From an uncultured Clostridia bacterium (GTDB lineage Bacteria > Bacillota > Clostridia > Oscillospirales > Acutalibacteraceae), in NCBI GenBank assembly GCA_947169745.1, contig CAMVQZ010000012.1, forward strand, positions 1 to 36,573: 36,573 nucleotides of DNA, read 5' to 3'. The notes under the pieces were generated by a model. It worked only from the letters and a program-made list of their open reading frames with translations. It ran no database searches and was not told the origin of the DNA. The position numbers and the translations under genes are program-made. How positions within the stretch are numbered: position 1 is the first letter of the stretch; every line of letters starts with the position of its first letter. This document shows positions 10,905 through 30,894 of the stretch, one piece after another.

Positions 10905-11000
10905 AGTCAAAGCTTTTTTCGTTCATTTCTATCAACCTCCTGAAATTATAATATCACATCATTTCAGGGGTGCATTGATGTATGTTAAAATTTATAAAAA
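10905..11000 (-). repeat. Relic copy of the CPBP gene 5' end and leader
   Basis: This matches 21871-21966 at roughly 90 percent, including the TATAAT-bearing leader, the AGGAGG ribosome site and the ATG (10926). The reading frame gives MNEKSFDLKK and a stop, against MNEKSFNLAK in the intact gene. The copy has no body and cannot make a protein. Confidence 0.85.
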
Positions 11001-11035
11001 ACTATTATTTTTGCTTTGTCTGTCTTTAAGAATAA

Positions 11036-11075
11036 TTATACTCCGTTTCGTTATCAGATTTTCCGGTATTATTAA
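11036..11075 (-). repeat. Relic copy of the PLD-helicase gene 5' end
   Basis: The minus strand matches the ribosome-site region of the helicase (30894-30935): GAAAA(T/C)CTGATAACGAAACG, then GGAGTATAA, followed by a reading of ATTCTTAAAGAC against ATGCTGAAAGAC. The ATG is lost. It lies directly upstream, in transcription sense, of the CPBP relic. Confidence 0.75.
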
Positions 11076-11105
11076 TTGTTTCAGCATAGCACATCTTCAC
11101 TAATT

Positions 11106-11149
11106 ATACCCGCACAGCCAAGCAATGATCTGCAATGCTATGCGGGTAT
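11106..11149 (-). terminator. Terminator hairpin of the M13/ABC operon
   Basis: ATACCCGCA (11106-11114) pairs with TGCGGGTAT (11141-11149), and pairing extends inward through AGC/GCT after one mismatch. It begins 7 nt after the ATPase stop. The tail AATTAG is A/T-rich but not a pure T run. Confidence 0.6.
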
Positions 11150-11156
11150 TATCTTA

Positions 11157-11837
11157 TCAGATTATCACACGATCCTTGAGTGTAACTATTCTGCTGCTGT
11201 ATGAAGCTGCTTCAGCCGAGTGAGTGACCTGGAGTATAGTGATCCCCTTTTCCCCATTGAGCCTTTTGAAAAGCTGCATGATCTCAGCGCCCGAAGCCGC
11301 ATCCAGATTACCTGTCGGCTCATCCGCGAGGATTATTTCAGGTTCTCCGATGACAGCTCTTGCGATCGCAACACGCTGCTGCTGACCGCCTGAGAGCTGT
11401 GCAGGATATGAACGTTTTTTATTCTGAAGTCCTGTGATAGAAAGTATCTCCTCATATTTTTCCTTGTAATCGGAAAGCTTTTTACCGCTCATTTCAAGGG
11501 ACAGAAGGATATTGTCCTCAACATTGAGATTTGCAGCAAGGTTATAGAACTGAAATACAAACCCCATCTTCTCGCTGCGCAGCTGAGAAAGCTTTGAATC
11601 GTTCAGCTTTGAGATATCCTGACCGGAAACCGTGATCTCACCCTTGAATTTTCTGTCAAGTCCTCCGATAAGATAAAGAAGTGTTGATTTACCTGTTCCT
11701 GATTCGCCCATCAGCGAAACAAAGCTGCCTTTTTCAATATCAAGCTGTGCTCCATCGAGGACGACCTGAGTGGTCTCACCCTTTCCGAATGTCTTGTGCA
11801 GGTCTTTTGCTCTTATAATATAATTATTTTCGTTCAT
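11157..11837 (-). CDS. ABC transporter ATP-binding protein (LolD/MacB type)
   Basis: 226 residues. The ATG at 11837 ([11 protein letters not shown]) is chosen because GGGAGGG lies 7 nt upstream. Walker [10 protein letters not shown] at 44-52, Q-loop [12 protein letters not shown], signature LSGGQQQR at 148-155, Walker [13 protein letters not shown], and the H-loop in ILQVTHSAE are all intact. It powers the large FtsX-type permease encoded 22 nt upstream. Enzymes of this class drive export of peptides or lipoproteins, or transmit force to surface enzymes, rather than import. It is the last gene of the three-gene operon. Confidence 0.95.
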
Positions 11838-11859
11838 CTTTATTTCCCTCCCGATCAGA

Positions 11860-14322
11860 TTAATCTGAGTCTGTTTTGATCTCTTTGACAACATCCATCT
11901 TTGAAAGCATCCTTACAGGCTTGATAACAACGATCATCATAATCAGCGATGTTATCACACCAAATATTACCGAATAAAGTACCGGGCTGGCAAGAACTAC
12001 AGTCATATTTATCATCGCAAGTGCTTTTCCGACAACATTCAGGAAGTACAGACTGAAAGCAGATGCAAATGCGACAGAAACCACGATCATAAGCGCTGCC
12101 TCGATAACGATAAGCTTTTTCAGTTTGTTCTTGCTCATTGATGAAGAATAGAATATCGCATATTTTCTTCTTGACTGCTCAAATCCCATAAGCATATTGC
12201 TTGACGTTCCCAGCAGCGACAGCACAATACCAAGAACGATTATTGAATAAAGAATAGTAAGTATGCCCTCGACCGTACTTCTGACTTCGATCATGAATTC
12301 CTCATTCGTCATAATTCTCACGGAATTGTCAGGCAGAGTTGCTCTCAGCATTTCCATGACCTCAATGGTCTTTTCGGGCTTGGAATCGATCAGAACATAT
12401 GCCGGCTCATCGTAATATATCCTCTTGTATCTGTCGAGATTTATCATCATTGTATTTCCGACATTATTGAAATAAACTGAATCTATCAGAGCGCTGACCC
12501 TTAATTTAAGTTCTTGTTTCAGGTATTTTTCATTATTCAGACCAAGTGTTACCTCGTCTCCGACTTTCAGCGAAAGCTTATCCGCAAGGGACTTGTCCAA
12601 AGCAATTTCATTATCACCGAGTTTGTCTGGAAGGCCCGAGATACCGCTTACATATTTGAATCCGCCATCAGGATAACCCATAATCAGGATTTCACACTTT
12701 TCACTATTGATCATAACAGATGAATCATACATGAGATGTTTGAAATAAAGGACTTCCACATCATTTACGCCGTCAATAGTTTTTACAATTTCATATGTTG
12801 CGCCGCTGCGTTCCGGGCTTGTGTCGATGATAGTTGTATGAAAAACAGGGTCAGATACCATCCTCACAACCGAAATGCTGAGAATCAGCACAGCGATTGT
12901 TGCCGATACAGCAGAAACAATGAGCTGAGAGGAAGAAACGCTGCTTTTTGTGCTTGAGATCTCCTTTGCTGCCAGCTTTGCAACAGGCATATTGAGCTTT
13001 GAAAACAGCTTTGCAAGCAGCTTTGAAATAAAATAGATGACCATCGGGAAAACCAGGACAAGACCGATGACCGAACAGAATACGCTCAGTATTATCATCA
13101 TAAAGTCTTCAAAGACAATGTATATAACAACACTTGCGATCAGAAGGATAGCTCCTGTCACAGCAAAAAGCCCCGACGGCATATATACTGAATCCTTTGT
13201 ACCGAAAACAATATCTCTTACAGGTGTCTTTGCCGCTTTTATGATCGCAGAGATGGAAAACAGTACCTGGATCAGTATTACCAGCACTATTACCAGACAT
13301 ATAGTTAAAATATTGACGCCATCGTTGACTTCCATACCTTCTACAGGCGGCGGAGTCATTCCGAGAGCAGAAAACTGTCTCAGCGGCAGGAACAGCAATG
13401 TTCCCAATACACCTCCGCAAAGTCCATAAAATGCGCTTTCTGCGATCAGCAGCATCCCCGTACTGAATATACTTCCGCCGATGCTGCGGAGCATTCCGAC
13501 AACGGACATTCTCTCATTGACGATGTGCTTTGACATTGAAACTATTATGAAGCATACCATCAGGAAAACAACTGCAAAGATCAGATAATAGATACTGAGC
13601 ATATTGTCGAGGGCGGCCTGCGCTTCTACTCCTGTGCTGTTCATGAAATTATACTTCTTATGCTTTGCCATTACGTCAAGTATTGTTTCATTCAGATGTT
13701 CTTCAGGTATATCTGCATATAGTGTATCGATACTGCCTGATTTTACTCCCTTTATCTCACAGCAAAGATCAGGAGTCACGATAATTGCCATCGGGGTACG
13801 TGCCAGCATCTTTGACGGTCTTTTTATTTCAAGTATTTTCAGCGAATACTTTTTCCCTTGGTAGCCGTAAAAATCCAATTTATCTCCGACCTTTTTGTCA
13901 AACTGTTTTGCAACATCGGTCGTGATAGTTGCGCCGCCTTCAGTCGGGACCTCAGATTCAAAAAGCCCCATTTCCAATGCCTTTTTTGTATCTATTCCGA
14001 TAACACTTATGTTTACATTGCTGACGTACTTAACATATTTACTATTGGGCTGAGTTATCTTTATACTCTCTGTTACCTGACTGAGAGTTCTTGTGCCCTG
14101 TGGGAATTCATCATCCTTGATATTGATATCTTTACCAATGCAGACCATATCCGCCTCACCAAACTGTGAAAAAAAGAAGGCTCTCAGGTCATTTTTCACT
14201 GAATTTATTCCTGACATACAGAATAATGCCGCAAATGCCGCTGCTGCAAGAGACAGAATAATAATAATCGTACGCAAAGGTTTTCCGACAACATTCCGGA
14301 GTATCAATTTAGCTCTTATCAT
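11860..14322 (-). CDS. ABC transporter permease, FtsX/MacB family
   Basis: 820 residues. The N-terminal membrane helix at about 17-37 is followed by a large extracytoplasmic MacB-like domain, then a three-helix FtsX block at about 240-370, further membrane helices, a second extracytoplasmic domain, and a final FtsX block at about 690-810. This is the ten-helix double-FtsX layout of Gram-positive antimicrobial-peptide and lipoprotein exporters. GGTGA precedes the ATG, which lies 4 nt after the M13 peptidase stop. The close linkage to a secreted peptidase suggests a common surface function. Confidence 0.92.
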   Translation of the reverse strand: MIRAKLILRNVVGKPLRTIIIILSLAAAAFAALFCMSGINSVKNDLRAFFFSQFGEADMVCIGKDINIKDDEFPQGTRTLSQVTESIKITQPNSKYVKYVSNVNISVIGIDTKKALEMGLFESEVPTEGGATITTDVAKQFDKKVGDKLDFYGYQGKKYSLKILEIKRPSKMLARTPMAIIVTPDLCCEIKGVKSGSIDTLYADIPEEHLNETILDVMAKHKKYNFMNSTGVEAQAALDNMLSIYYLIFAVVFLMVCFIIVSMSKHIVNERMSVVGMLRSIGGSIFSTGMLLIAESAFYGLCGGVLGTLLFLPLRQFSALGMTPPPVEGMEVNDGVNILTICLVIVLVILIQVLFSISAIIKAAKTPVRDIVFGTKDSVYMPSGLFAVTGAILLIASVVIYIVFEDFMMIILSVFCSVIGLVLVFPMVIYFISKLLAKLFSKLNMPVAKLAAKEISSTKSSVSSSQLIVSAVSATIAVLILSISVVRMVSDPVFHTTIIDTSPERSGATYEIVKTIDGVNDVEVLYFKHLMYDSSVMINSEKCEILIMGYPDGGFKYVSGISGLPDKLGDNEIALDKSLADKLSLKVGDEVTLGLNNEKYLKQELKLRVSALIDSVYFNNVGNTMMINLDRYKRIYYDEPAYVLIDSKPEKTIEVMEMLRATLPDNSVRIMTNEEFMIEVRSTVEGILTILYSIIVLGIVLSLLGTSSNMLMGFEQSRRKYAIFYSSSMSKNKLKKLIVIEAALMIVVSVAFASAFSLYFLNVVGKALAMINMTVVLASPVLYSVIFGVITSLIMMIVVIKPVRMLSKMDVVKEIKTDSD

Positions 14323-14326
14323 ATCT

Positions 14327-16297
14327 TCACCACACCTTTATTCTGTTCTCGGGAGCAACATACATTTTGTCCGATTCCTTGATGTCATATACCTCATAGA
14401 ATTTATCGACTGATGATACTACAGCATTGACTCTTGCTTCGCCCGGGCTGTGCTCATTGCTCTCGAGCTGCGTCAAAACATCAGTTATTTCGGTTAAAGC
14501 AGCCCATTCCTGAGCCTCTCCCTCGAGTATCTGCTTGATATTTTCCTTGTTGTCAGTGATATTTACAAGACACTCAATAGCACCGATATCGGCAATATTC
14601 TCTGCGAGAGTCTTTTCTCCATCAATACTGTAAATACCGAGTATCTTATAATTCTGGTAATAATCGATGACCTTTTTCTGCAGTATTTTGTATGCATCAC
14701 GGTCAGCCTTTCTGATGAATTCCGGATTATAGCATCCGTTCTTATCAAAATTTATGCCGAGGGAATCGAAGGCATGGTTTATCTCATGTGCTATTACGTG
14801 ACCGAGCATTCCGAGGTTCTTGTATTCTCCGAGTTCCGGATCAAATGCCGCCTTGCTGAGCATTGCTGCAGGTATCGTTACCGTATTCGATAACGGCGAA
14901 TAGACTGCATCGACTGTGATCGGAGTAAGTCCCCATGTACTTCTGTCAGCCTTTTTGCTGAGTTTTTTCTTTGCGAGCTTAACATTGTATTTTTTGATGC
15001 TTATAAGATTTCCGATCAGTGTTCCGCCTTTTTCTTTCGGAAGGAGATCATAGGGAGTGTGATAATCCTTGTTGTATCCCACAAGGAATATAATATTATC
15101 GAGTTTTTCTGTCAGCTTCTTCTTTGAATCACCGCTGAATCTTGAAGAGTTCTGTATCAGCTCACGGCACGACTTACTGATATCTTTCAGCATTTTATCC
15201 GCCATATTCATAACTTCATCCGTACAGATCTCTTTTCCGTAAATAATACCCAGCTCCTCGGGTAGATTGTCATAGATAAACATCTTGCCCTTTCTCTGAA
15301 GTTCCTTTTCCTTGTTTGCAAGATAAGAAAAGCCTTCCTGACTGCTTGGCGGAAGTGCATCGCCATATGTATACATCGCGCAGGCAAGTGTATAATCCTT
15401 GAGTGCTCTCAGGTTTTCAGAAGTGAATAATTCATCTACCTTTTTCGCACTTCCCTCATCATAGACGATGATCTTATCCTCGCTGAAACCGAAGGATTTG
15501 ATCATCAGATCAACATTTATATTCTTGAACATCTTTTTCAGTTGGTCTCTTGAATAAAGTTTGTAATGCTTTTCGATATTGTATTCTTCTTTTGAATCCA
15601 GCATTGCGTAAACGATATCGTTTACGATACTGACTGCTGACTGGGTTCTTTTAAGACTATTGGTTTCTTTTTCGTCTATTATTGAAATAGTGTTTTTGAT
15701 GATATCTCCGATATTTTCAATACCTTTATCAGTCTTTGTGAAGTTTTCCTTCATATTTCCCATTGTATTTATCCTGAAAAGATAAAGTCTGTTGATCGAC
15801 GTATCAGCCATATCGGGCTTTATTTCAAAATTAAAAAATGAGGAAACTCCATATTCCTGATAGAGCATTCCCATTGCGGAAATAAGCTCATCTGTGGTTT
15901 TGCACTTTTCTATCATCGCTGTGATCGGCATAAGCGGAGCAACTCCGGCAGCTTCTCTCGCATCAGTATCTGTATACTGCTCATACAGAGTCTTTATCTG
16001 AGTTTCCTCAGCGGTTTTTCCTTCTTTGCAGCAGCGATCCACGATCGAATAAATGTCATTTTCAAGTTCCTTACTGATCTGATCCATTCTGGTGTAACTT
16101 TTGCTGTCATACGGTACCTGAGCCTTTGTCAGAAAATCATAATTGACATATTCGTAAAAATCATCGCCGGGTTTCGGTCTTTCAGCTACCGCAGATGTTT
16201 GTTTTGGCTGGGGCATAACAGGTTCCTCGGGAGCGCAGGCACACAGACCCGCTGTCATGACCAGCAAAAGCAGCAGCGACACAATTTTTTTCTTCAT
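14327..16297 (-). CDS. M13 family zinc metallopeptidase, lipoprotein
   Basis: 656 residues from ATG 16297; GAGG lies 9 nt upstream, while the ATG at 16306 would touch it. A lipoprotein signal peptide ends in LCAC, giving lipidated Cys21. The neprilysin/PepO pattern is complete: HEINH at 504-508, the third ligand in ENIAD (Glu566, with Asp570), the Arg-bearing C-terminal block ARVNAVVSSVDKF, and the terminal R-x-x-x-W. It cleaves oligopeptides outside the membrane. It begins the operon with the permease and ATPase, so it may process the substrate, or be controlled by the transporter. Confidence 0.93.
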   Translation of the reverse strand: MKKKIVSLLLLLVMTAGLCACAPEEPVMPQPKQTSAVAERPKPGDDFYEYVNYDFLTKAQVPYDSKSYTRMDQISKELENDIYSIVDRCCKEGKTAEETQIKTLYEQYTDTDAREAAGVAPLMPITAMIEKCKTTDELISAMGMLYQEYGVSSFFNFEIKPDMADTSINRLYLFRINTMGNMKENFTKTDKGIENIGDIIKNTISIIDEKETNSLKRTQSAVSIVNDIVYAMLDSKEEYNIEKHYKLYSRDQLKKMFKNINVDLMIKSFGFSEDKIIVYDEGSAKKVDELFTSENLRALKDYTLACAMYTYGDALPPSSQEGFSYLANKEKELQRKGKMFIYDNLPEELGIIYGKEICTDEVMNMADKMLKDISKSCRELIQNSSRFSGDSKKKLTEKLDNIIFLVGYNKDYHTPYDLLPKEKGGTLIGNLISIKKYNVKLAKKKLSKKADRSTWGLTPITVDAVYSPLSNTVTIPAAMLSKAAFDPELGEYKNLGMLGHVIAHEINHAFDSLGINFDKNGCYNPEFIRKADRDAYKILQKKVIDYYQNYKILGIYSIDGEKTLAENIADIGAIECLVNITDNKENIKQILEGEAQEWAALTEITDVLTQLESNEHSPGEARVNAVVSSVDKFYEVYDIKESDKMYVAPENRIKVW

Positions 16298-19661: not shown

Positions 19662-20183
19662 TCACCATAAACGAGAGCTACCACCATATATTGTTTTTCC
19701 CTCAAGCTCCAGTAGGAATCTTTTCCTGTCAATACCTCCTGCATACCCTGTCATACTGCCGTCTGCACCTACTACTCTGTGGCACGGAATGATGATTGAA
19801 ATGGGATTATGCCCCACCGCACCGCCTACAGCCTGTGCGGACATTTTCTTTTTGCCCGTTTGCTGTGCAAGTATCTCCGCAATTTCACCGTAGGTAATAG
19901 TCTGCCCGTAAGGAATAGTCAGCAATATATCCCACACGGCTTTTCTGAATGGTGTGGACTGCAAATTGAGTTCCGGCGTAAAATCAGGTATTTCGCCGCC
20001 GAAATAGGTATCAAGCCAACTTATCGTATCTTCAAAAACAGGCAGGATTTTTTCTTCATAAGGCTCTGAAAGCGTTCCGGCAAAATATTTCTGACCGTCA
20101 AACCACAAGCCTGTTAGTGCTGTTCCGTCGCTTGCCATTGTCATTTTGCCGATAGGAGAATCTAATCTATAAACATAATCCAT
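19662..20183 (-). CDS. ogt: Methylated-DNA--protein-cysteine methyltransferase
   Basis: 173 residues from ATG 20183, which follows GGTGATTATAAA; the longer frame to 20264 is leader. The active-site motif IPCHRV places the acceptor at Cys134. The DNA-binding helix region (QSTPFRKAVWDILLTIPYGQ, TYGEIA, AVGGAVGHNP) and the C-terminal GYAGGIDRKRFLLELEG are complete. It repairs O6-methylguanine by suicidal transfer of the alkyl group. Its promoter and first roughly 40 codons are duplicated at 25015-25240. Confidence 0.96.
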   Translation of the reverse strand: MDYVYRLDSPIGKMTMASDGTALTGLWFDGQKYFAGTLSEPYEEKILPVFEDTISWLDTYFGGEIPDFTPELNLQSTPFRKAVWDILLTIPYGQTITYGEIAEILAQQTGKKKMSAQAVGGAVGHNPISIIIPCHRVVGADGSMTGYAGGIDRKRFLLELEGKTIYGGSSRLW

Positions 20184-20294
20184 TTTATAATCACCGGTTT
20201 TCTGATGCTTATATACAAAACGCCGCATAAAGCGGGACCGTCTTTTTGCCGTCCTCAAAACCAAATTTTTTTGATGACAGCTTTATTAGTCAAT

Positions 20295-20372: not shown

Positions 20373-20407
20373 AAAAAAGCCGGCAGAACAGCTGATGTTT
20401 TACCGGC
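20373..20407 (-). terminator. Terminator of the CPBP-Crp operon
   Basis: On the minus strand GCCGG (20403-20407) pairs with CCGGC (20379-20383), followed by TTTTTT. The same hairpin, with GCCGGCA/TGCCGGC, recurs at 27281-27309. It is separated from the Crp stop by an inserted MITE. Confidence 0.65.
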
Positions 20408-20409
20408 AG

Positions 20410-20588
20410 TTAAGGCAACACCGCACAGAGATTGCGCGTCAGATTTCGAGCATAATTTTTTGTCAGATTGACAAAATCGACGCAGGAATACTGACGTATT
20501 TCAAGGAGATTTTGGCGAAAATGACGGAAAATTTGCCGAAAGATGGCGTGCAAAGCCGTCAGGCGGTCTTTGTGCGGTGTTGCCTTAA
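20410..20588. mobile_element. 179-bp MITE with perfect 18-bp terminal inverted repeats
   Basis: TTAAGGCAACACCGCACA at the left end is the exact reverse complement of the right end (20571-20588), and similarity runs a few bases further in. The interior has no coding potential. The element sits between the Crp stop and its terminator. The paralogous junction at 27.3 kb goes from the Crp tail to the hairpin without it, giving an empty site. TTAA at both ends may be the target duplication. It would need a transposase supplied elsewhere. Confidence 0.85.
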
Positions 20589-20591
20589 TAA

Positions 20592-21185
20592 TTATTCGTC
20601 TCTCATAGTCTTTCTGATACGGCTAAGGGATTCGGGGGTAATGCCAAGATATGTAGCAATATGCTTCTGCGGAACACGGTCGCACAGCTGCGGATGGTGC
20701 TTTCTGAAATACAGATAACGCTCCGCTGCATTTTCTGTCAGAAAGCTGCTTTCTCGATATATCTTGTATTTCAGACCGTTCTCAAGCAGAGCTATCCAGA
20801 TGGTTTTCAGGCTTTCACTGCTCATGATAAGGCTTTTCAGCTCACGGACTTCAAACAGCATAAGTGTAGATTCCTCCAAAGTCTCCCACATACATATATG
20901 CTCACTATGCCCCATCATACCTTCATCCATGCACATACCGCCGTCAAAGCCAAAACCTCGTGTAATATCGTTACCATCGCCGTCAATATAATAGCAGCGC
21001 ACAAGTCCGTCAAGAACAAAGGCGGTCTTCTGCGCCTTATCACCGATGCTTTTCAGAGTTGTTCCTTTTGGATATACCCTGAACTGTGCAAGCTCCACTG
21101 CCCTGCTCAGAATTTCTTCATCAAAGCAAACACCGTTCTGATCTGCAAGGGTTTTAAGCTGCATCATAATGCTTTCTTTATTCAT
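20592..21185 (-). CDS. Crp/Fnr family transcriptional regulator
   Basis: 197 residues from ATG 21185. The start overlaps the CPBP stop (TAATG), with GGAGG 9 nt upstream inside that gene. Residues about 20-125 form a cyclic-nucleotide-type beta barrel (YPKGTTLKSIGDKAQKTAFV, GLVRCYYIDGDGNDITRGFG). Residues 171-192 are a short helix-turn-helix (VPQKHIATYLGITPESLSRI). The Fnr cysteine set is absent, so an effector other than an iron-sulfur cluster is likely. The HTH type is that of small Crp-like regulators with a truncated wing. Co-expression with CPBP suggests a shared response. Confidence 0.9.
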   Translation of the reverse strand: MNKESIMMQLKTLADQNGVCFDEEILSRAVELAQFRVYPKGTTLKSIGDKAQKTAFVLDGLVRCYYIDGDGNDITRGFGFDGGMCMDEGMMGHSEHICMWETLEESTLMLFEVRELKSLIMSSESLKTIWIALLENGLKYKIYRESSFLTENAAERYLYFRKHHPQLCDRVPQKHIATYLGITPESLSRIRKTMRDE

Positions 21186-21886
21186 TATTTCATACCTCCG
21201 CACATAACGATAAGATAGAAAATTCCCACAAGATTAGCACCGGCATGAGGTATAATAGAAGAGATCATATGACCGCTCTTTTTGTATGCCCATATCCAGA
21301 TAAGTCCTGCGAAAAACGAAAAGCCGAAATTGTACCAGTCAAGCAAAGCAAACAGAATATTAAAAAGCAGCATTGCTTTTGTTTCACCTAAAACCGAGCC
21401 CACAAAGCATTTTGCAAAGCCTCTGAAATAAATTTCCTTGCAGATACCGCTGACGAACACCAACGAAATAATTTTCATAATGGTTGTACCAATGGAAGTA
21501 TCGGTATCATTGAATGCAAGCTCCGATCTTCCTGCGGCAAAGACAAAGCTATACCCCAGAGAGACGATCATTGATGCAGCAAGCGCCGCCACACCAAGAA
21601 GAATATCCCTGCCGAGAGTTTTTTTCTCAGCTATTTCTTTTTTCAGGCTGATGCCGCTCTGATGATAAAGCAGAATTGCAAAGGGCAGAAGTATCAGATT
21701 CGCAAGAATGAGTATCAGGCAGTAGGCATTCATATTTACGGTTGCGTAAGTGGCAATATCAAAAATATTCATCCCCGGTTTGTAGCCGTATATCGCCATT
21801 AATACTTCAAAGCCTGCAACAAAAAGAGTAAGTACGGTAGTAATTGTAAGCGCTGTTTTTGCTAAGTTAAAACTTTTTTCGTTCAT
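21185..21886 (-). CDS. CPBP-family intramembrane protease homologue with altered active site
   Basis: 233 residues from ATG 21886 behind AGGAGG. Six or more membrane helices. The CPBP (Abi/Rce1-like) motifs are partly changed: motif 1 is KEIYFRG, with Lys for the first Glu of EExxxR; motif 2 is FALLDW, with Asp where His is usual; motif 3 HAGAN is intact. It may be a non-proteolytic or altered-metal homologue. CPBP proteins act in peptide maturation or bacteriocin self-immunity. It is followed by, and coupled to, a Crp/Fnr regulator. Confidence 0.87.
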   Translation of the reverse strand: MNEKSFNLAKTALTITTVLTLFVAGFEVLMAIYGYKPGMNIFDIATYATVNMNAYCLILILANLILLPFAILLYHQSGISLKKEIAEKKTLGRDILLGVAALAASMIVSLGYSFVFAAGRSELAFNDTDTSIGTTIMKIISLVFVSGICKEIYFRGFAKCFVGSVLGETKAMLLFNILFALLDWYNFGFSFFAGLIWIWAYKKSGHMISSIIPHAGANLVGIFYLIVMCGGMK

Positions 21887-21971
21887 TCCTATCAACCTCC
21901 TGGAATTATAATAACATATCATTTCAGGGGACGCATTGATGTATGTTAAGATTTATAAAATTTTTTTCTTC

Positions 21972-21998
21972 TTTCAGAATACGTATTATCTCCTCATC
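21972..21998 (-). pseudogene. Relic of a NUDIX gene 3' end
   Basis: The minus strand reads GATGAGGAGATAATA, then a short variable part and CTGAAA, translating to DEEIIRILK. The intact NUDIX gene ends FCPADEEIIRILKNG with nearly the same codons (27371-27397). The relic lies just upstream of the CPBP leader; only about nine codons are recognisable. Confidence 0.5.
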
Positions 21999-22058: not shown

Positions 22059-22541
22059 TCACTTTGTATAACAGGTACAGCTTTCTTGGTCTATAGATGT
22101 ATATTTTACAAAAGAACCTGATAAAAAAGAAGCCACAAACACATTCTTCTTGTTGTCAGTGTTTTCCAACTTATACTGCGATTGATTTTTTTCGCTATTT
22201 ATTATAATATGTTCGTTCGTTGGTTCTATATTTGTCGAAAGAATAAATGTCCGCCCTTTTAGTTCACTAAAGAAATATTTTGCTATATTAAACCTATGCT
22301 CAGTATCTATTCTTGCAAACGGAGTATCAATCACGAACGAAATCTCATAATTTTCCGGTTTTACTGGAGCAAAATATAGTGACATAATGAATATCTGTTT
22401 TTCTCCGTTTGAGAAAGATTCTTTATCTATTTCCAAAGGAAGGACATATATATCTTTATCATTGATCCTATATACAATATCATTAAAAAGAGTTTTACCA
22501 AAAATGATTTTAAGGCATACAGGAGCTCGGTCTCCAAGCAT
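22059..22541 (-). pseudogene. C-terminal remnant of a DndD/SMC-like ATPase
   Basis: 160 residues. SFSNGEKQIFIMSLYFA is the ABC signature region of DndD-type ATPases (usually S-A-G-E-K-Q). FVIDTPFARIDTEHRFNIAK is Walker B and D-loop, and FILSTNIE the H-loop region. The N-terminal Walker A half and the coiled coils are missing, and stops precede the ATG at 22541, which has only a distant AGAGG. The family occurs in DNA phosphorothioation restriction and other anti-phage systems. This is a broken defence gene; it cannot be an active ATPase alone. Confidence 0.75.
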
Positions 22542-23415: not shown

Positions 23416-24219
23416 TTATCTCTGATTTCCGATTTTTACTATTGATTTAAAGAATTCCTTCGCCCAACCGTATACTCCCTGCTGAACGACCCCTTGTTTA
23501 ACTAATATGAGTTTACCACTCTCCAATAGGTGATAAAGCCGATAGTTTGTAAAAGCAAGCATTCTTGGCAAGTCTTCACTAAGTATCGTTCCGACGATCT
23601 TATAAACCGGAACTTCCTCATTTCCGATCAACTGAAAGATTTTATTATCAATATAATCTTCGGGCATATTTTGAATCTTTCCATCTTTCATAATCCTTAG
23701 TTCTGCATTGACTGCTTTTAATTCATTCAGTTCCCGTATATACTGTTGATATTCCGCCATGCTAAGTATTGTTTTTTCCGGAAGTGTATCAATAACCAAT
23801 TCGTTTTTTATTATTTCGTCATTGTCCGTTATAGTATAATTATCGTGATATAGCATTAGTTCAAAAATATCTGTATAATCGCATAAATATATAGTTTTTC
23901 CTTTACCGCTGAGGTACTCGATCACAGCAAGCATTCCAAGATATTCATCTGCATCTTTTTTTGAGAACCATATACAAACAGAATTCTCTTTTTTCAAATA
24001 TTTTTTTAATCTTCGTATTTCTTCCGAGACAATCCCGAAATATCCGTCAAAATAAGCATCATAAACTTTTTTTCTTGAATGTACGGACATAGGAACGGAA
24101 ATATTTCCTGCATGAAGGAATAATTCAAGTGACATCATGTTTTCGCCTTCAAGACCAAGCTGTTTTTTGAAGCAGTGTGCCGTCCCCTCGACAGATCCTC
24201 TGAAAAAAATGTTCAACAT
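23416..24219 (-). CDS. DUF1835-like protein
   Basis: 267 residues from ATG 24219; AAAGGGA lies about 9 nt upstream, while the ATG at 24228 would touch it. The N-terminal block LNIFFRGSVEGTAHCFKKQL and the strand-loop VCIWFSKKDADEYLGMLAVI resemble the DUF1835 fold. A C-terminal helical part (PRMLAFTNYRLYHLLESGKL) resembles the companion winged-helix region of that family. The function is unknown. It lies 24 nt after the ATP-grasp gene and is probably co-transcribed. Confidence 0.65.
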   Translation of the reverse strand: MLNIFFRGSVEGTAHCFKKQLGLEGENMMSLELFLHAGNISVPMSVHSRKKVYDAYFDGYFGIVSEEIRRLKKYLKKENSVCIWFSKKDADEYLGMLAVIEYLSGKGKTIYLCDYTDIFELMLYHDNYTITDNDEIIKNELVIDTLPEKTILSMAEYQQYIRELNELKAVNAELRIMKDGKIQNMPEDYIDNKIFQLIGNEEVPVYKIVGTILSEDLPRMLAFTNYRLYHLLESGKLILVKQGVVQQGVYGWAKEFFKSIVKIGNQR

Positions 24220-24243
24220 TAATATCATTCCCTTTCCGCTGAT

Positions 24244-25014
24244 TCATATATCATAAATCAACGACAGTTTTCTGTAAAAGCTTTCTGCGTTCTGAAAGTC
24301 AGAAAATCCCGACACCTGACCGTCTCCGGCTTCAATGATTTTCCAGCTTCCGTCTGCTGTCTCGGCATAATCTACTGTATAGAACGGACTATTCAAGTTG
24401 CTGTATTCTTGTATAAGTGCCTCCGGAGGTTCGGGCAGGTATTCCGACTGACCAGAATTTCTGCTTATCGTTATCGCCTGATTATTACAGTAGAACACAC
24501 GATATTCATTCGTCTTTTCGCCATACCGTTTCAGTTCCAGAAACTCTTTGATACATATTCCTCCGGTATAAAGATTTCCTCTGTAAGAAAGGAATTTTCT
24601 GATCAGACTTCTGAATTCATCCTCCCCTATTTCAGTGCTGATACACTTCGGGAAATCCGTACCTTTGACAGATTTTACATAATCTTTTACCATACATTTT
24701 CTGAAAGTTTTCCTGATCTGTTCATAATCAATTTTTTCAGGAGCATCATAGACGATCATAGGTGCAGTATCCTCAATCAATTCAGGATATATTTCCGGAA
24801 ATGAATGCATTCTTTTATATTCAGAAGGAGTTGTTATAAGCTGCAAATCCACGTTCTGAAGCTTATCATATAATTCAGCATATTTTTCAGGCTTCAGCAT
24901 CCATCCTCTGTATATCACAGGACAAGCCAAAGATGTATCACCTTTCAGCCGCAGCTTTCCTTCTTCGAGAAATGTATCATATGAAAACAGAAGCACATTG
25001 AGATTATTCTCCAT
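24244..25014 (-). CDS. R2K-type ATP-grasp protein
   Basis: 256 residues from ATG 25014. Motifs of the small R2K ATP-grasp clade are visible: MVKDYVKSVKGTDFPKCI (lysines for ATP), EYRVFYCNNQAITISRNSGQ, and WKIIEAGDGQVSGF with the metal-binding Glu and the D-G-Q-V. Such enzymes ligate an amino group or amino acid to a carboxylate, often on peptides; the substrate here is unknown. AGGG precedes the start. The ribosome site and promoter belong to a duplicated ogt 5' end, so the gene appears to have captured that promoter. Confidence 0.8.
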   Translation of the reverse strand: MENNLNVLLFSYDTFLEEGKLRLKGDTSLACPVIYRGWMLKPEKYAELYDKLQNVDLQLITTPSEYKRMHSFPEIYPELIEDTAPMIVYDAPEKIDYEQIRKTFRKCMVKDYVKSVKGTDFPKCISTEIGEDEFRSLIRKFLSYRGNLYTGGICIKEFLELKRYGEKTNEYRVFYCNNQAITISRNSGQSEYLPEPPEALIQEYSNLNSPFYTVDYAETADGSWKIIEAGDGQVSGFSDFQNAESFYRKLSLIYDI

Positions 25015-25139
25015 TGCGGCCCTGAAAATGCCTGTGCATAATATTTCTGCCCGTCAAACCACAAGCCTGTTAGTGCTGTTCCGTCGCTTGCAATTGTCAT
25101 GCTCCCGATGGGAGAATCGTATCTATAAACACAGTCCAT
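25015..25139 (-). pseudogene. Truncated ogt 5' copy ahead of the ATP-grasp gene
   Basis: ATG 25139 begins MDCVYRYDSPIGSMTIASDG and continues GLWFDGQKYYAQAFSGP, matching residues 1-41 of the intact ogt. The match ends exactly at the ATP-grasp start codon. Beyond it the frame runs 64 codons in total, out of frame over the ATP-grasp gene. The gene-free stretch 25015-25356 holds this relic, its promoter and the divergent promoter of the Sel1 gene, plus an AGTACAA-TTTT-TTGTACT hairpin at 25254. Confidence 0.88.
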
Positions 25140-25208
25140 TTTATAATCACCGGTTTTCTGATGCTTCTATACAAAACGCCGCATAAAGCGGGACTGTCTT
25201 TATTAAAT

Positions 25209-25237
25209 ATCATAGCAATCATTCATGTATAATTCAA
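25209..25237 (-). promoter_or_regulatory. Duplicated ogt promoter driving the ATP-grasp gene
   Basis: TTGAAT (25232-25237), 17 bp, TATGAT (25209-25214). The spacing and -10 are preserved from the ogt promoter despite spacer changes, which suggests it still works. Confidence 0.6.
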
Positions 25238-25289
25238 GGGTATTTATATACATAGTACAATTTTTTGTACTGACTAAAGATTGATTTTA

Positions 25290-25356: not shown

Positions 25357-27246
25357 ATGCGTAAGTTAAAACAATGGGATGATGTTAGCTATCAGATCAA
25401 AGGAAAAAAATGTCAGGGCATAATAAGAGAAATAAACGGCAAAACTGCCGAGGTTTATGAATATATCACCTCAAAAATAAGAAATCTTCCTCTTTCAGGA
25501 CTAACATATGTACCGCCGCTCTATATCATCGATGAACAATTAAAAAAGCTTTGTCGTTTTGAGATCGGATGGAGTGATATCAAAGACGAGGAACACTCCC
25601 TGTTTCATTATGAATCAGATGATACTTATTGCTTTACTCTTGATGATATGCTTGATGCACTGAAAAAGATCGCTTCATCCGATATGGATAATGAAACAAT
25701 CTTCAGAGAATGGTATGCTCCGACTTCACAGTTTCTTCATGATGATCAAATAATTCTCTTTGACGAAGAAACGCCTGATAATATTGAAACTCTTCCGGCT
25801 CTTCCTGATCGCAGCGATAAGCTTTACACTATCTGCGAAAATATAGAATTTATGCTTGAACCGGAGCAACCGCCATTTATCGAAAAGGTTAACAGCATTA
25901 TCAAAGAAATAGAGGATTATTTTGAGGATGAAAATAAGCCTGTCACACAGAGACGTTATACAGATGAAGAAAAAGAGGATTTCATAAAATATCATCATCA
26001 TGAAAATAATCTGAAATATGCTGATGAAAAAGTTTTGTCTTTATATCGTCAATTTGTAAATGAGCTGTGTGATATAGACAACCAAAAAGCACTGAAATAC
26101 AAAGGCTATGGCTGTTACGGCGGAGATCCTGCCTTTGAATGCGACTGGCACACATCACTGTCCTGTATAAAAAAGCTTTACGAACTGACCGGAGAGCCTT
26201 ATCTTGCCAATACACTTGGATACATTTATTACTATGGCCGCTGTTGGGATGGTCAGCCTCAGTATGATGAAGCCTTTCGTTATTTTTCTGTTGGCGCGGC
26301 AGGCGGTATTTATGAATCACGCTACAAACTGGCTGATATGTTTGCAAAAGGATACGGTGTTGTTCAGAATAAAAACATAGCTGTAGGAATTATCGAGGAA
26401 CTGTATGAACAAAATCTTGAATATATGCTTGATGGGAATTTTGAATGCAAGTTTGCCGATATTGCCCTCCGTCTCGGAGGTTATATAGAAAAAGGTTATG
26501 TTGAATATACATCCAAAAGCAATGCACTCGGATTATATATGCAGGCAGATTTTGCCATCAGGCAGCGTCTGAAATACGATCATTACGGAGATCTCTCCGT
26601 TGCAGACAGTATCCGTACAGCACTTTACAGACTGCTTTCCGACGAAGACATCACAAAGCCCAAAAGAACCTGCCGTATATACATTTCATATCTGCTCAGG
26701 AACTATCTGAAAAAATACCGTAAAATACAAATGAAGATCAGGCACCTCAAAAATGGTGAGCTCAGTCTGACCTTCCGTATAACCCCGTTCATTAACGAAA
26801 AATATCATCCGAAAATGTTCATCACCGAGCCTGAAGCAGGCTTCTGCGGTATGGTAGAAAAGCTGAATATCCATGTTAAAAATCCTGAAATATCAGAAAT
26901 GGATATTACTGATGATACCGTTGAATTTGATAATATAGAGGGATGTGAATACTATCTTGGTGATGAAAAAGTAGCAGAGATCAGAGGAGAATATTATTTT
27001 ACCTCACCTGAGAAAAAATCGGGAAAAACATATTGCATTGCCTCGGTTTATTTTTCTCCCGGCGGACATCTTTACGATTATATTCTTGAAACAGAGGGTG
27101 TTTCCGTTGGTGATAAGGTTATTGTAGTCACGGATATGGGAGAAACAGAAGTGACTGTTGCTGCGATAAACAACAAATCCGAATCGGAGCTTGCTTTGCC
27201 TGTCAGCAAGTACAAAAAGATAATCAGAAAGGCAGAAAACGGATAA
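25357..27246 (+). CDS. Sel1-repeat-containing protein of unknown function
   Basis: 629 residues; ATG 25357 follows GGGAGGTAATGTT. The N-terminus (1-50) resembles a small beta domain (WDDVSYQIKGKKCQGIIREI). An acidic helical region follows. At about 280-355 there are Sel1/TPR-like units (YDEAFRYFSVGAAGGIYESR, YKLADMFAKGYGVVQNKNIA). The C-terminal 100 residues form another beta domain ending VSVGDKVIVVTDMGETEVTV. There is no signal peptide or membrane segment. It is the only plus-strand gene, with its own promoter and terminator, set inside a defence-like region. A scaffold or sensing role is inference. Confidence 0.82.
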   Translation: MRKLKQWDDVSYQIKGKKCQGIIREINGKTAEVYEYITSKIRNLPLSGLTYVPPLYIIDEQLKKLCRFEIGWSDIKDEEHSLFHYESDDTYCFTLDDMLDALKKIASSDMDNETIFREWYAPTSQFLHDDQIILFDEETPDNIETLPALPDRSDKLYTICENIEFMLEPEQPPFIEKVNSIIKEIEDYFEDENKPVTQRRYTDEEKEDFIKYHHHENNLKYADEKVLSLYRQFVNELCDIDNQKALKYKGYGCYGGDPAFECDWHTSLSCIKKLYELTGEPYLANTLGYIYYYGRCWDGQPQYDEAFRYFSVGAAGGIYESRYKLADMFAKGYGVVQNKNIAVGIIEELYEQNLEYMLDGNFECKFADIALRLGGYIEKGYVEYTSKSNALGLYMQADFAIRQRLKYDHYGDLSVADSIRTALYRLLSDEDITKPKRTCRIYISYLLRNYLKKYRKIQMKIRHLKNGELSLTFRITPFINEKYHPKMFITEPEAGFCGMVEKLNIHVKNPEISEMDITDDTVEFDNIEGCEYYLGDEKVAEIRGEYYFTSPEKKSGKTYCIASVYFSPGGHLYDYILETEGVSVGDKVIVVTDMGETEVTVAAINNKSESELALPVSKYKKIIRKAENG

Positions 27247-27280
27247 AAAAGCATTTTGTATCGTTTGTTTATAAGAAACC

Positions 27281-27317
27281 GCCGGCAGAACAGATCACGT
27301 TTTGCCGGCATTTTTTT
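27281..27317 (+). terminator. Terminator of the Sel1 gene, also serving the NUDIX side
   Basis: GCCGGCA (27281-27287) pairs perfectly with TGCCGGC (27303-27309), followed on the plus strand by seven Ts. It is a paralogue of the hairpin at 20373-20407. On the minus strand the same stem follows the NUDIX gene. Confidence 0.85.
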
Positions 27318-27319
27318 AA

Positions 27320-27357
27320 TTATTCATCTCTCATAGTCTTTCTGATACGGCTAAGGG
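27320..27357 (-). pseudogene. Relic of the Crp gene 3' end
   Basis: It matches the last 38 bp of the Crp gene (20592-20629) with one difference, reading LSRIRKTMRDE and a stop. It lies between the NUDIX stop (27365) and the shared terminator, showing that a CPBP-Crp-like stretch was once here and was mostly deleted. Confidence 0.8.
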
Positions 27358-27364
27358 TTTCACC

Positions 27365-27745
27365 TTATCCGTTTTTCAGGATCCTTATTATCTCCTCATC
27401 CGCCGGACAAAACTCAAATTCAGAAAGTTCAGAAACAGTTATCCACTTCATATCATTGTGTTCAAGCAGCTTCGGTTCACCTTCTGAAATTATCGCATTA
27501 AACAACGTCAGATATACGGTGATGTCCGGATATTCGTGGGTAACTTCTGTAACGACACTGCCAACTTCAAGGAGAACATCAAGCTCCTCTCTGCATTCAC
27601 GGACAAGAGCCTGCTCTCTTGTCTCACCCGGTTCTACCTTTCCGCCGACAAATTCCCATAGCAGTCCTCGTGCTTTGTTTGCCGGTCTCTGACAGATCAG
27701 AAAACGTTCTTTATCCCATATCAGCGCTGCAACTACCTCTGTCAT
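27365..27745 (-). CDS. NUDIX hydrolase, MutT-like
   Basis: 126 residues from ATG 27745, which overlaps the helicase stop (TAATG) with GGTGGTGGG just upstream. The NUDIX box GGKVEPGETREQ ... RECREEL is intact (Gly35, Glu41, Arg49-Glu50, Glu53-Glu54); the late Gly is Asp56. The QRPANKARGLLWEFVGGK stretch is that of (deoxy)nucleoside triphosphate pyrophosphohydrolases. Strict coupling to a PLD-helicase suggests it acts with it, for example by hydrolysing a nucleotide in defence, rather than as general MutT. The gene is followed by a Crp 3' relic and a terminator. Confidence 0.92.
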   Translation of the reverse strand: MTEVVAALIWDKERFLICQRPANKARGLLWEFVGGKVEPGETREQALVRECREELDVLLEVGSVVTEVTHEYPDITVYLTLFNAIISEGEPKLLEHNDMKWITVSELSEFEFCPADEEIIRILKNG

Positions 27746-30700
27746 TATCCCACCACCAGTTTGTTTGTCTTTTTCAGATATTTTGCCGGTATCGGCTGAT
27801 CCAGACTCCATGTAATATTCATCGGACGTGAGCCCTCATGTTTCACATAATTTGCTGTTCCAAGATATGTATAAGCCTGTGCTCCGCCTGTTATTCTGTC
27901 CGTTTTGAATTCACGCACTAACAATAGGACCTTGCTGCCTCTCTCACGGTGATGAATGTATCTCTGACCTGTAGGAGAGGTGTCTGCTGTTGTGCTCTGA
28001 CTCTGCCAGTGAAACAGGCGTTCATTTATCGAATAATCATTATACATCGTTGTGGGAGAATAGTCCTTATCAGACTTATTCAGCGTAACAAAGAAAACAT
28101 CAATTTTCTTTTCCGGCAGCCATTTGACACCCTCCCTGACGGTTGACGGCTTCATAAAATCAAGCGCAACAAGAAGTTGATCGCGGGTATAGGTACAGTG
28201 CAGATCAAGCGGACATTCAAAGCCCAGATCAACAGGTGAATCAATAAAATCTATACGGCTGTATTGATATTTCAGCAGTTCTATAATCTCGGACAGCATA
28301 ACCGTACTGTCAGCAAGTGCATAGAGATTATCAAGTACCTCATCACTTCCGAGATCCTCCACAGCAGTTCCCCATACAGTGATATAAAACATTTGCAGCA
28401 TACGCTTCTCGACAGGAGTAAGCTTGTTTAAATCAGTGTTGTCAAGCTCCGGCAGCAAGCGCAGCAAAAAGCCTATCCATCTTCGTGAATCGATCACAGC
28501 CAGCTTTGCAAGCGCCTTTGTCAGCACTTCCTCCATAGGTTCGGAAAAGTTGTCGATCTTATCCGCACGGGCACACAGCCGTGAGAATGACGAAAACTTA
28601 TAGATCGAACGCGCGTCAATATGATAATAGTCGAGAAAGCTTGCAAGACTGAGTGTCAGTCCTGTATCCTCTTCAAAGCTTGCTATGCGTGAAATAAGTC
28701 CGGCAGTATTGCCGTAGGAAGCTCGGATATTATCAAGAATATACTTTGCCGCCTTCTTTTCAAGCTGAATGTAACAGCCCTTTGGCAGAGAAATAAAACC
28801 GTCCTTTATCTCCCTTGTGACACTTCGGGTCGTATTTGAAAGCAACGCTGCAAATTTATCTTCAAAGTTGTATTTTCGGTTAGCCTGACCGATAAAGTCA
28901 AGCACTGTCAGACAATCCTTATTTTCGCAAAGTCTCAGCCCACGGCCAAGCTGCTGTAAAAAAACCGTCAGCGATTCCGTAGGACGAAGAAAAAGAACCG
29001 TATTGATCTCCGGAATATCAACACCCTCGTTATAGATATCGACAACGAAAATAAAACTCACCTTTCCTGAAACAATGTCTTTGCTTGCCTGTTTACGCTC
29101 ATCATCAGGAGAGTTTCCTGTCAGGAACATAGACGGAATACCATGCTGATTAAAATAATCGGACATAAATTCAGCGTGTGCCACAGAAACACAGAATCCC
29201 AGTCCCTTGACCTCATCAATATCCGTAACGTATTTGAGCAGCGATGAAATGACAAGATCGGCTCTGCGGTTTGCTTCAATTCCACTCATGGTATAGATAT
29301 TCGACAGTTCAGTTTTATCATAGCCGCCGGCACTCCATTTCAGATCGTTCAGGTCAATGGTATCGGTCACACCGAAATACTGAAACGGGCAAAGCAGCTT
29401 TCTGTCGATAGCTTCCGGCAGACGGATCTCTGCAGCAATACGATTATTGAAATAAGTCAGAATACTCTTTCCGTCCATACGCTCCGGCGTTGCAGTAAGT
29501 CCTAAAAGCATCGCCGGCTGATAATAAGAAAGCAGCTTCTGATATGTGGGCGCTGCGGCATGGTGGAATTCATCGACGACAATATAATCGTAATAACCTG
29601 GTGTGGTCTTTTCGGTAAATGCCTGAGAATTGAAGGTCTGTATGGAAACAAAAAGATAGTCCATGCTTTCCGGCTTATAATTGCCAACAAACAACTCTCC
29701 GAAATTAGCGTCCTTCAGCACAGCACGGAAGGTATACAGGCTCTGACGAAGTATTTCCTCACGATGTGCCACAAAAAGCAGTCTGCATGGCTTATCTGGA
29801 TGTCGTTTTCTGAAGCTTTTATAATCAAGTGCCGATATGACGGTTTTACCCGTACCGGTTGCCGCAACAACAAGATTACGCATATTGCCGCGAACTGCAC
29901 GCTCCGCATCCAGCTTATCAAGTATCTCCTGCTGATATGAATATGGCATGATATCCAGTGTATACATTCCGGAATCATTGCTGTCAAAGTATTTTTCAGC
30001 TTTAAGCGCATGAGCCAGACGCTCACGCTCTCCCTCGTTGTAATATTCAAATTCGGTAGAATTCCAGTAGCTTTCAAAGGTCGCGGCGATCTTATCTATC
30101 GTTTCGGGAAGATCCTTTTTCGTCACCTTGACATTCCATTCCAGACCGCTTGAAATAGCTGCATTGGAAAGATTTGAAGAACCCACATAAGCAGTGGTAA
30201 AGCCTGTGCCGCGATAAAAAACATAGGTCTTGGCATGAAGCCGTGTGCGCTTTGTGTCGTAGCTCACTTTTATCTTTGTATTCGGAAGAATCCGAAGCTC
30301 CTCTATTGCCTTTATATCAGTAGCACCCATATATGATGTTGTGATGATACGAAGCTTGCCGCCATTCATGGTAAACTCCCGAAGCTCATCAATAATAAGC
30401 CGCAGACCGCTCCACTTGATGAACGACACAAGCATATCAATACGATTGCAAGAGACTATCTCTTTTTTAAGCTCCGTAAACATCTGCGGTTCGTGGATCG
30501 CTCCGGTGAACAGTGAACTTTGTGCGATAGATGTCTCCGGACGTATGATCTCCGCCTTTTCATTCAGAGCATGGATCTCGTTTTTTCTTTCGATCAATGC
30601 AAGAAGCATTTCAGCACGCTCTGCAACGGACATAGAATCAAAGCTTGTTTCCTGCGTTCCTGAAACAACGGAGGATATTATCTTATTTACAAGCTCCACC

Positions 30701-30894
30701 TGAGATGAAACATCTCCGCCGTTATCTCTGACATTTTGCAGTCCCTTTTCCACTACCTCTGAGATATATTGTGAAAGGATCTTCGCCGCCTCTGCCGGAT
30801 CAATTGCAGCAGTCTGAATGAGCTTGTCTGTTTCGGCAAGCTCATTATCAAGGGATTTATTTATTACCTGTTCGTAAAGTCCGTCTTTCAGCAT
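27745..30894 (-). CDS. PLD-nuclease/superfamily 2 helicase (DUF3427 type)
   Basis: 1049 residues from ATG 30894, chosen for GGAG 7 nt upstream; the in-frame TTG at 30927 lacks a ribosome site. An N-terminal helical region is followed by a PLD domain at about 135-260 with His220-x-Lys222 and VGSSNLSNAAISSG. The helicase domain has ATGTGKT (345-351), DEFHH (441-445), LTATPERMDG, and the C-terminal RecA lobe with YNEGVDIPE and QQLGRGLR. The last 300 residues match DUF3427 (RDQLLVALDF, EGVKWLPEKKIDVFFVTLNK). It probably binds and cleaves or remodels foreign DNA. TTGACA at 30995 may be its -35. The McrC gene lies 160 bp upstream. Confidence 0.93.
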   Translation of the reverse strand: MLKDGLYEQVINKSLDNELAETDKLIQTAAIDPAEAAKILSQYISEVVEKGLQNVRDNGGDVSSQVELVNKIISSVVSGTQETSFDSMSVAERAEMLLALIERKNEIHALNEKAEIIRPETSIAQSSLFTGAIHEPQMFTELKKEIVSCNRIDMLVSFIKWSGLRLIIDELREFTMNGGKLRIITTSYMGATDIKAIEELRILPNTKIKVSYDTKRTRLHAKTYVFYRGTGFTTAYVGSSNLSNAAISSGLEWNVKVTKKDLPETIDKIAATFESYWNSTEFEYYNEGERERLAHALKAEKYFDSNDSGMYTLDIMPYSYQQEILDKLDAERAVRGNMRNLVVAATGTGKTVISALDYKSFRKRHPDKPCRLLFVAHREEILRQSLYTFRAVLKDANFGELFVGNYKPESMDYLFVSIQTFNSQAFTEKTTPGYYDYIVVDEFHHAAAPTYQKLLSYYQPAMLLGLTATPERMDGKSILTYFNNRIAAEIRLPEAIDRKLLCPFQYFGVTDTIDLNDLKWSAGGYDKTELSNIYTMSGIEANRRADLVISSLLKYVTDIDEVKGLGFCVSVAHAEFMSDYFNQHGIPSMFLTGNSPDDERKQASKDIVSGKVSFIFVVDIYNEGVDIPEINTVLFLRPTESLTVFLQQLGRGLRLCENKDCLTVLDFIGQANRKYNFEDKFAALLSNTTRSVTREIKDGFISLPKGCYIQLEKKAAKYILDNIRASYGNTAGLISRIASFEEDTGLTLSLASFLDYYHIDARSIYKFSSFSRLCARADKIDNFSEPMEEVLTKALAKLAVIDSRRWIGFLLRLLPELDNTDLNKLTPVEKRMLQMFYITVWGTAVEDLGSDEVLDNLYALADSTVMLSEIIELLKYQYSRIDFIDSPVDLGFECPLDLHCTYTRDQLLVALDFMKPSTVREGVKWLPEKKIDVFFVTLNKSDKDYSPTTMYNDYSINERLFHWQSQSTTADTSPTGQRYIHHRERGSKVLLLVREFKTDRITGGAQAYTYLGTANYVKHEGSRPMNITWSLDQPIPAKYLKKTNKLVVG

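Follow-up and report, generated by a model that had tools for sequence, protein, structure and literature searches.

The window analysed here, a 36,573-nt stretch of contig CAMVQZ010000012.1 from an uncultured Clostridia bacterium (G000 in our genome set), carries intact and fragmentary genes for a helicase, a NUDIX protein, a CPBP membrane protein and a Crp/Fnr-type regulator (crp) at three places, which an earlier note on this DNA had combined into a single four-gene module. We consider it likely that these genes represent two independent two-gene units that were once adjacent, rather than one functional system. Unit 1 would comprise a SauUSI-type enzyme and a NUDIX protein with overlapping stop and start codons, here encoded behind McrBC, and unit 2 would comprise CPBP and crp, transcribed independently from a promoter of their own that carries an Fnr-like site at a class II-like activator position. 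The composite stretch helicase-NUDIX-CPBP-crp-terminator, followed by the start of an O6-methylguanine-DNA methyltransferase (MGMT) gene, would be present in the genome as two related, decayed copies, unit 1 having disappeared from copy A and unit 2 from copy B, so that each unit survives once, with a scrap at 11 kb (scrap C) as a third remnant. Both units are predicted to move between species, not with each other. The supposed four-gene defence operon would thereby be replaced by two separately mobile pairs that met, each decayed copy keeping the other one, and the durable finding is the pairing of a type IV restriction enzyme with a NUDIX protein.

The genes and relics of copies A and B, scrap C and the McrBC genes lie on the minus strand unless stated otherwise. 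Copy B (25.0–30.9 kb) has the order McrB, McrC, helicase, NUDIX, last 45 nt of crp and a terminator-like hairpin. The helicase gene (27745-30894) starts at the ATG at 30894, its open reading frame (ORF) opening at 30927 inside the leader, and its stop is overlapped by the ATG of the NUDIX gene (27365-27745) in the sequence TAATG. The crp 3' relic that follows (27317-27361), comprising the last codons and the stop, is identical to 20589-20633 at 43/45 nt (E 3.4e-14; E-values for repeats and relics in G000 were computed for that single genome), and the hairpin beyond it (27281-27313) is matched in copy A and in two further genomes, G073 and G075. The intact helicase and NUDIX genes described at 27.3–30.9 kb, with a crp relic and a terminator behind them, are thus confirmed. 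Farther downstream lies an MGMT 5' relic with its leader (25018-25243), identified from the repeats.

Copy A (20.06–22.0 kb) has the order short NUDIX-like 3' tail, CPBP, crp and a hairpin similar to that of copy B. The tail (21972-21998), situated upstream of the CPBP promoter, spans 27 nt with 89% identity to the NUDIX end (E 0.004), and is credible because a NUDIX tail of 40 nt (83%, E 8.9e-5) occupies the equivalent place in G073. Elsewhere in the 64 genomes of the genus that form the comparison set, the NUDIX-end query found, among the matches listed, only the NUDIX genes of G000 and G007 and two matches of 19–22 nt (G013 and G008; E 0.004–0.006); in such genus-wide DNA relic searches at most 12 or 13 candidates were scored per genome. 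CPBP (21185-21886; 233 aa from the ATG at 21886, ORF opening at 21922) is followed by crp (20592-21185), whose ATG overlaps the CPBP stop, again as TAATG, so that both stop-start overlaps reported earlier are seen. The hairpin (20379-20411; 33 nt, 85% identical to that of copy B) precedes an intact MGMT ORF (19662-20264; Pfam DNA_binding_1 2.7e-33). The NUDIX tail, CPBP, crp and terminator claimed for 20.4–22.0 kb are all present; the terminator, however, is separated from crp by a repeat of ~178 bp located at TTAA.

Scrap C (10897-11076) consists of helicase leader, a probable NUDIX-tail/spacer remnant, the CPBP promoter, and the first 10 CPBP codons and a stop, the CPBP part translating as MNEKSFDLKK before the stop. 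Positions 10897-10999 are about 89–90% identical to the CPBP 5' end of copy A (E 1.1e-32), and the helicase part matches the leader at 30879-30938 with 83% identity (E 2.5e-10). A helicase relic does therefore lie upstream of a CPBP 5' relic, as had been claimed, but it is mostly untranslated leader and has ATT at the position of the helicase ATG. The spacer between NUDIX tail and CPBP in G073 can likewise be aligned to the inner part of this helicase segment, and scrap C is equidistant from copy A (89.9%) and G073 (88.8%), which are themselves 89.9% identical. The ~178-bp repeat of copy A, a miniature inverted-repeat transposable element (MITE)-like element, was considered as the cause of scrap C; the gapped alignment was weak (score 36) and no such origin is claimed.

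All gene-end pieces described earlier for these three places are present in the order and on the strand given, and their arrangement suggests that the order helicase-NUDIX-CPBP-crp once existed, because the shared relics and junctions in copy A, copy B, scrap C and G073 agree. The junctions helicase leader/CPBP 5', NUDIX 3'/CPBP, NUDIX/crp 3' and crp-terminator-MGMT fit one order, and the relic matches (CPBP 5', crp tail and helicase leader) are far beyond chance in one-genome searches. Copies A and B share 184 nt of the MGMT gene start downstream of the terminator (20062-20245 vs 25018-25201, 163 nt identical), amounting to 88.6% identity for the MGMT start and 95.6% for the crp tail, as against 78.8–81.5% and 91.1%, respectively, to G073. 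G073 carries NUDIX tail, CPBP, crp, terminator and MGMT start, and thus repeats the NUDIX 3'/CPBP junction as well as the crp-terminator-MGMT junction. The latter order is also kept in G075, where other genes intervene in the flank much as a gene for a 629-aa protein interrupts copy B. From these observed sequences and junctions we infer the history of the copies, namely that the order helicase-NUDIX-CPBP-crp-terminator probably existed somewhere in the past. Copies A and B, and scrap C as well, may go back to duplication in this lineage or may have come in independently as related islands; the second route is possible because the island has been exchanged between species.

The same relics could also have arisen without any ancestral contiguity, if the region were a hot spot of rearrangement in which pieces of a CPBP-crp locus and of a defence module were repeatedly and independently joined. 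The neighbourhood does contain a number of scraps, including a truncated DndD/PbeC-like gene, an MGMT fragment and a high-copy element. A further rearranged piece was observed in G083 (locus L110, contig C174; 6546-6911), where two helicase pieces facing opposite ways stand on either side of a 24-nt stretch identical to the region of the CPBP promoter box; no CPBP match was found in this genome, and the piece is possibly another remnant of the composite stretch, rearranged by inversion. It also fits a hot spot. A NUDIX-tail/CPBP junction in two genomes together with the shared crp-terminator-MGMT flank would, however, need repeated coincidence, and we regard this explanation as distinctly unlikely. 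Still harder to credit, to the point of being extremely improbable, is that imperfect direct repeats at the two ends of helicase-NUDIX allowed its excision in one piece, leaving scrap C and the copy A tail as scars. The helicase start and the NUDIX end do align over ~28 nt, and scrap C reads helicase leader and then CPBP spacer as such a scar would; yet when one end was shuffled 2000 times, 87 shuffles aligned with at least as high a score, making the repeat barely above chance, and a Pfam scan of 27 ORFs of the window revealed no recombinase.

If adjacency is supported, joint function is not. The four genes had been read as one operon, decayed differently in each copy, that would pair a DNA-cutting enzyme with a nucleotide hydrolase, a membrane effector and a regulator; while the junctions support a historical gene order, they do not support an operon or functional module. 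In its favour are the consistent order and strand of the relics, the stop-start coupling at both surviving junctions, and the exchange of CPBP-crp among G000, G073 and G075 together with terminator and MGMT start, in G073 also with the NUDIX tail. Against it, the predicted contiguity of the four genes in relatives did not materialise in any of the 64 genus genomes, at 24 helicase loci of the order or at 80 helicase loci obtained by a profile scan of genome contigs (the best 80 of 216 relatives). The order-level flanks represent 24 of 31 places, the own locus and short matches being left out, and partly overlap with the contig-scan loci (same contigs under other names). The scarcity of CPBP and Crp near other helicases, the sharing of only unit 1 by G007 and of only unit 2 by G073 and G075, and the conserved site in a promoter belonging to CPBP itself, seen also in genomes that lack a helicase match, likewise disagree with a single operon, and we judge that reading to be very unlikely.

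The observed linkage counts separate the two units. Within the genus, a helicase C-terminal match occurs in three of the 64 genomes (G000, G007 and, as fragments, G083) and a CPBP orthologue in 14. CPBP and crp are adjacent in 13 genomes (G000, G002, G003, G007, G008, G012, G017, G022, G028, G073, G075, G084 and G085) and decayed together in the fourteenth, G006. In-frame stops occur in the matches of G008 (Crp and CPBP), G022 (CPBP) and G085 (CPBP), where the genes may be damaged or the stops may precede the true start, and in G012 CPBP is matched in two parts. Neither helicase nor NUDIX was found by tblastn (E 1e-3) in the fetched flanks of the 12 other CPBP-crp pairs, some of them on short contigs. 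Outside the genus the pair is present in G310 and G274; in G438 and G181 a Crp relative was found by profile and CPBP was not found. G007 carries both pairs, on different contigs, with an intact helicase-NUDIX pair followed by JetD-, JetA-, JetB- and JetC-like (Wadjet) genes.

Among the 80 contig-scan loci, 36 have a NUDIX gene in the same orientation as the helicase and no more than 2.5 kb from it (30 downstream, 6 upstream), as counted with a clean profile grown from those loci, and no match was found farther out or on the opposite strand in the ~858 kb of flank covered. At the order level, a NUDIX match stands beside 15 of 24 helicases, in two cases (L198 and L205) as short stretches. With profiles of seven good seeds each, and for CPBP one additional two-residue seed, Crp was near the helicase at 0/80 loci and CPBP at 1/80, at a distance of 5.8 kb; neither was found beside any of the 24 order-level helicases. 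McrC was near the helicase at 5/80 loci.

The promoter of CPBP-crp supports its treatment as a transcription unit of its own. A putative Fnr/Crp-like dyad, TTAACATACATCAA (21936-21949), lies in the CPBP promoter and is conserved upstream of CPBP across genomes, including those without a helicase match. In 15 promoter sequences, among them scrap C and one broken locus, this 14-bp box is identical in nine and retains 10–13 of its 14 positions in six, the more divergent members being closer to the perfect dyad TTAACATNTGTTAA. It starts 60–65 nt before the CPBP start (box-to-ATG distances in G002, G007, G012 and G017 were read by eye). Within a 12-nt search range, a hexamer with 4–5 of the 6 TATAAT positions lies 22–23 nt after the box in 14/15 sequences and 21 nt after it in scrap C, while copy A and G006 have a perfect TATAAT at 25 nt. 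The box would accordingly be centred near −41 of the predicted transcription start, or near −44 if the hexamer of copy A and G006 is used. Crp/Fnr proteins acting as class II activators bind at about −41, and the natural reading is that Crp would activate its own operon. Homology thus points to CPBP-crp as a separate, probably self-activating pair of membrane protein and regulator.

CPBP matches the Rce1-like family of Pfam (1.1e-10; PF02517 domain, 42.1 bits with a cut-off of 22.4). The EExxxR motif forms part of the active site of CPBP proteases, and in 10/10 aligned orthologues it is replaced by KExxxR, with loss of the first Glu, suggesting a CPBP-type protein that is probably not a protease. 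A His-containing motif is also expected in CPBP; LDW stands in its place, conserved in 10/10 aligned members of the family. Crp has a cNMP-binding domain above the cut-off (PF00027, cNMP_binding, 4.3e-7), whereas its helix-turn-helix (PF13545, HTH_Crp_2, E 1.9e-4) scores 21.8 bits against a cut-off of 27. We found no paper in the open-licence literature that treats the CPBP and Crp families together in Ruminococc-.

Judged against one marker (UvrC) in 11 genomes forming 55 genome pairs, unit 1 and unit 2 each appear to move between species as a pair, and not with the same partners. Between G000 and G007 the observed identities are 94% for the helicase and 92% for NUDIX, compared with 69% for UvrC, 60% for CPBP and 66% for Crp. 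Between G000 and G073, which yielded no helicase, CPBP and Crp are both 91% identical and UvrC 68%, and between G000 and G075 CPBP-crp is 87–90% identical and UvrC 73%; G000, G073 and G075 thus share CPBP-crp at 87–93% with UvrC at 68–74%. Since G007 shares helicase-NUDIX and G073 and G075 share CPBP-crp, the pairs would travel with different partners, and beyond the NUDIX tail of G073 neither of the latter two genomes has a helicase-NUDIX match. The identities of CPBP and Crp covary over the 55 pairs (rho 0.89) and do not follow UvrC, so that CPBP-crp itself behaves like a mobile cassette.

Several points weigh against the view of two independent units that once lay side by side. The full four-gene stretch is contiguous in no genome, so that past contiguity rests on relics, one of which, the 27-nt NUDIX tail of copy A (E 0.004), is weak when taken alone. 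The assemblies of many genus genomes are fragmented, with several CPBP-crp contigs stopping within a few kb (e.g., 3.1 kb in G073 and 3.7 kb in G003). G073 has a second, damaged CPBP locus (L209) with a weak NUDIX match (28%, E 0.001) ~1.3 kb away on the other strand. The composite island may have travelled whole among G000, G073 and G075 and later lost helicase-NUDIX. The identities of unit 2 do not correlate with those of UvrC (Crp, rho −0.05; CPBP, rho −0.07; 55 pairs), so that this pair is mobile as well; vertical inheritance of CPBP-crp was dropped on this ground and for the 87–93% identity of the pair across G000, G073 and G075. Finally, NUDIX was not found at 44 of the 80 helicase loci, 35 of which have at least 600 nt on both sides, and because of these loci the NUDIX partner is taken to be common but not obligate.

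The part of the window beyond the two pairs contains further traces of mobile and defence elements. The repeat between crp stop and terminator in copy A (20411-20588, no strand assigned) is a high-copy inverted-repeat, MITE-like element of ~178 bp with ends TTAAGGCAACACCGCACA, of which G000 has at least 32 near-full copies at 95–100% identity, this one included, and at least eight more at 72–76% (lower bounds, 40 of 66 candidates having been scored). It is a recently active non-coding element, and is not present at the corresponding crp/terminator spot of G073. The gene for the 629-aa protein (25357-27246, plus strand), which sits between MGMT relic and terminator in copy B, has no counterpart at the corresponding spot in copy A or G073; its product belongs to an unknown family, with no match in Pfam, PADLOC or NCBIfam and one weak PHROG match of unknown function (4.3e-5). 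Directly upstream of the helicase lies McrC (31055-32080; NCBIfam NF007277 above cut-off, Pfam McrBC), and next to it an McrB-type GTPase with an Mrr_N domain (32077-34683; NF008457 8e-87, below cut-off; Pfam Mrr_N and AAA_5). Just upstream of McrB (34721-35430) are a holin-like gene and a gene with an N-terminal domain of the phage dATP/dGTP pyrophosphohydrolase type, and because of these phage-type genes a prophage may be the carrier of the region. A C-terminal remnant of a DndD/PbeC-like ATPase (22059-22541; PADLOC 9.5e-18) represents a decayed defence gene beside copy A. Elsewhere in the window are a sequence truncated at the window edge (1-2109) that combines a TIR domain, ankyrin repeats and a weak match to TPR, and a DUF1835/DUF3658 gene beside an R2K ATP-grasp gene (23416-25014).

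The helicase combines a PLD-type nuclease, an SF2 ATPase and DUF3427 in one chain (Pfam PLDc_2, ResIII, Helicase_C and DUF3427, all above cut-off), with the motifs HAK at residue 220, ATGTGKT at 345 and DEFH at 441. Residues 140–1022 match SauUSI (PDB 7clg, 2.9e-88) with the HAK motif aligned, and PADLOC PDLC03659 (mREase_IV) is matched at 1.7e-233; by these criteria we class the protein among the SauUSI-type type IV restriction enzymes. Relatives covering at least 80% of the helicase were seen in four of 50,697 phage records, the best with 56% identity in a human faecal phage record. SauUSI itself is described as recognising 5-methylcytosine via a C-terminal SRA domain, translocating and cutting, with 5-hydroxymethylcytosine (5hmC) DNA also being cut (PMC7913695, PMC3874153), and a table in the second paper shows a target range of McrBC that overlaps with that of SauUSI (PMC3874153). 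Homology suggests that the helicase would likewise cut DNA carrying 5-methyl- or 5-hydroxymethyl-cytosine.

NUDIX, a MutT/NudG-like protein, is assigned by profile (PF00293 1.6e-18; PF14815, NUDIX_4, 8.1e-22). The strict Nudix box is GX5EX7REUXEEXGU, and a regular expression for it found no exact match in the protein; GKVEPGETREQALVRECREELDV, located by eye, keeps the REXXEE core and has Asp in place of the last Gly. By homology NUDIX would most likely hydrolyse modified or damaged dNTPs, keeping host DNA unmarked for cutting, and a general nucleotide-cleaning role is as possible as this sanitiser role. The idea of a sanitiser arises because an enzyme that cuts modified cytosine endangers its host if modified dCTP enters host DNA. 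Extending it, we tentatively suggest, while holding it rather doubtful, that SauUSI-type enzymes often carry a NUDIX sanitiser of their own. It would remove modified dCTP (5-methyl- or 5-hydroxymethyl-dCTP, either phage-made or salvaged from phage DNA that had been cut) and so protect the host, which would then not incorporate the attacked mark into its DNA, or starve the phage of this nucleotide. If true, a restriction system watching over the supply of nucleotides to protect itself would amount to a novel kind of self/non-self control. No paper on a partnership of type IV restriction enzyme and NUDIX, or on Nudix hydrolases in defence islands, was found in the open-licence literature, and PMC7159879 mentions SauUSI/DUF3427-type and Nudix domains in separate contexts of other systems. 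The partnership is frequent (36/80 loci), PADLOC already lists such NUDIX proteins as candidates, and it makes testable whether type IV systems guard the nucleotide pool.

Compared with known systems, the promoter of CPBP-crp resembles Crp/Fnr class II promoters in having a 14-bp dyad centred ~41 bp upstream of the expected start, provided that the hexamer at 22–23 nt is the −10 element; it differs in that the better hexamer of copy A and G006, at 25 nt, moves the centre to near −44. The NUDIX protein matches 125 of 135 positions of the PADLOC candidate defence gene PDC-S07 (E 3.6e-44). It also resembles NudG and MutT of E. coli (NCBIfam NudG 3.1e-26 and MutT 3.5e-24; PDB 2rrk, a CTP pyrophosphohydrolase, 2.3e-19, and 5x1x, MutT, 1.4e-22), but falls below both curated equivalog cut-offs (91.8 of 156 bits and 85.3 of 97.9 bits, respectively). 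The helicase shares with SauUSI the arrangement of PLD-type nuclease, SF2 ATPase and C-terminal target-recognition region in a single chain, and differs from it in being ~100 residues longer at the N-terminus (residue 140 aligns with 42), in lying behind McrBC and in having a NUDIX partner with an overlapping start codon.

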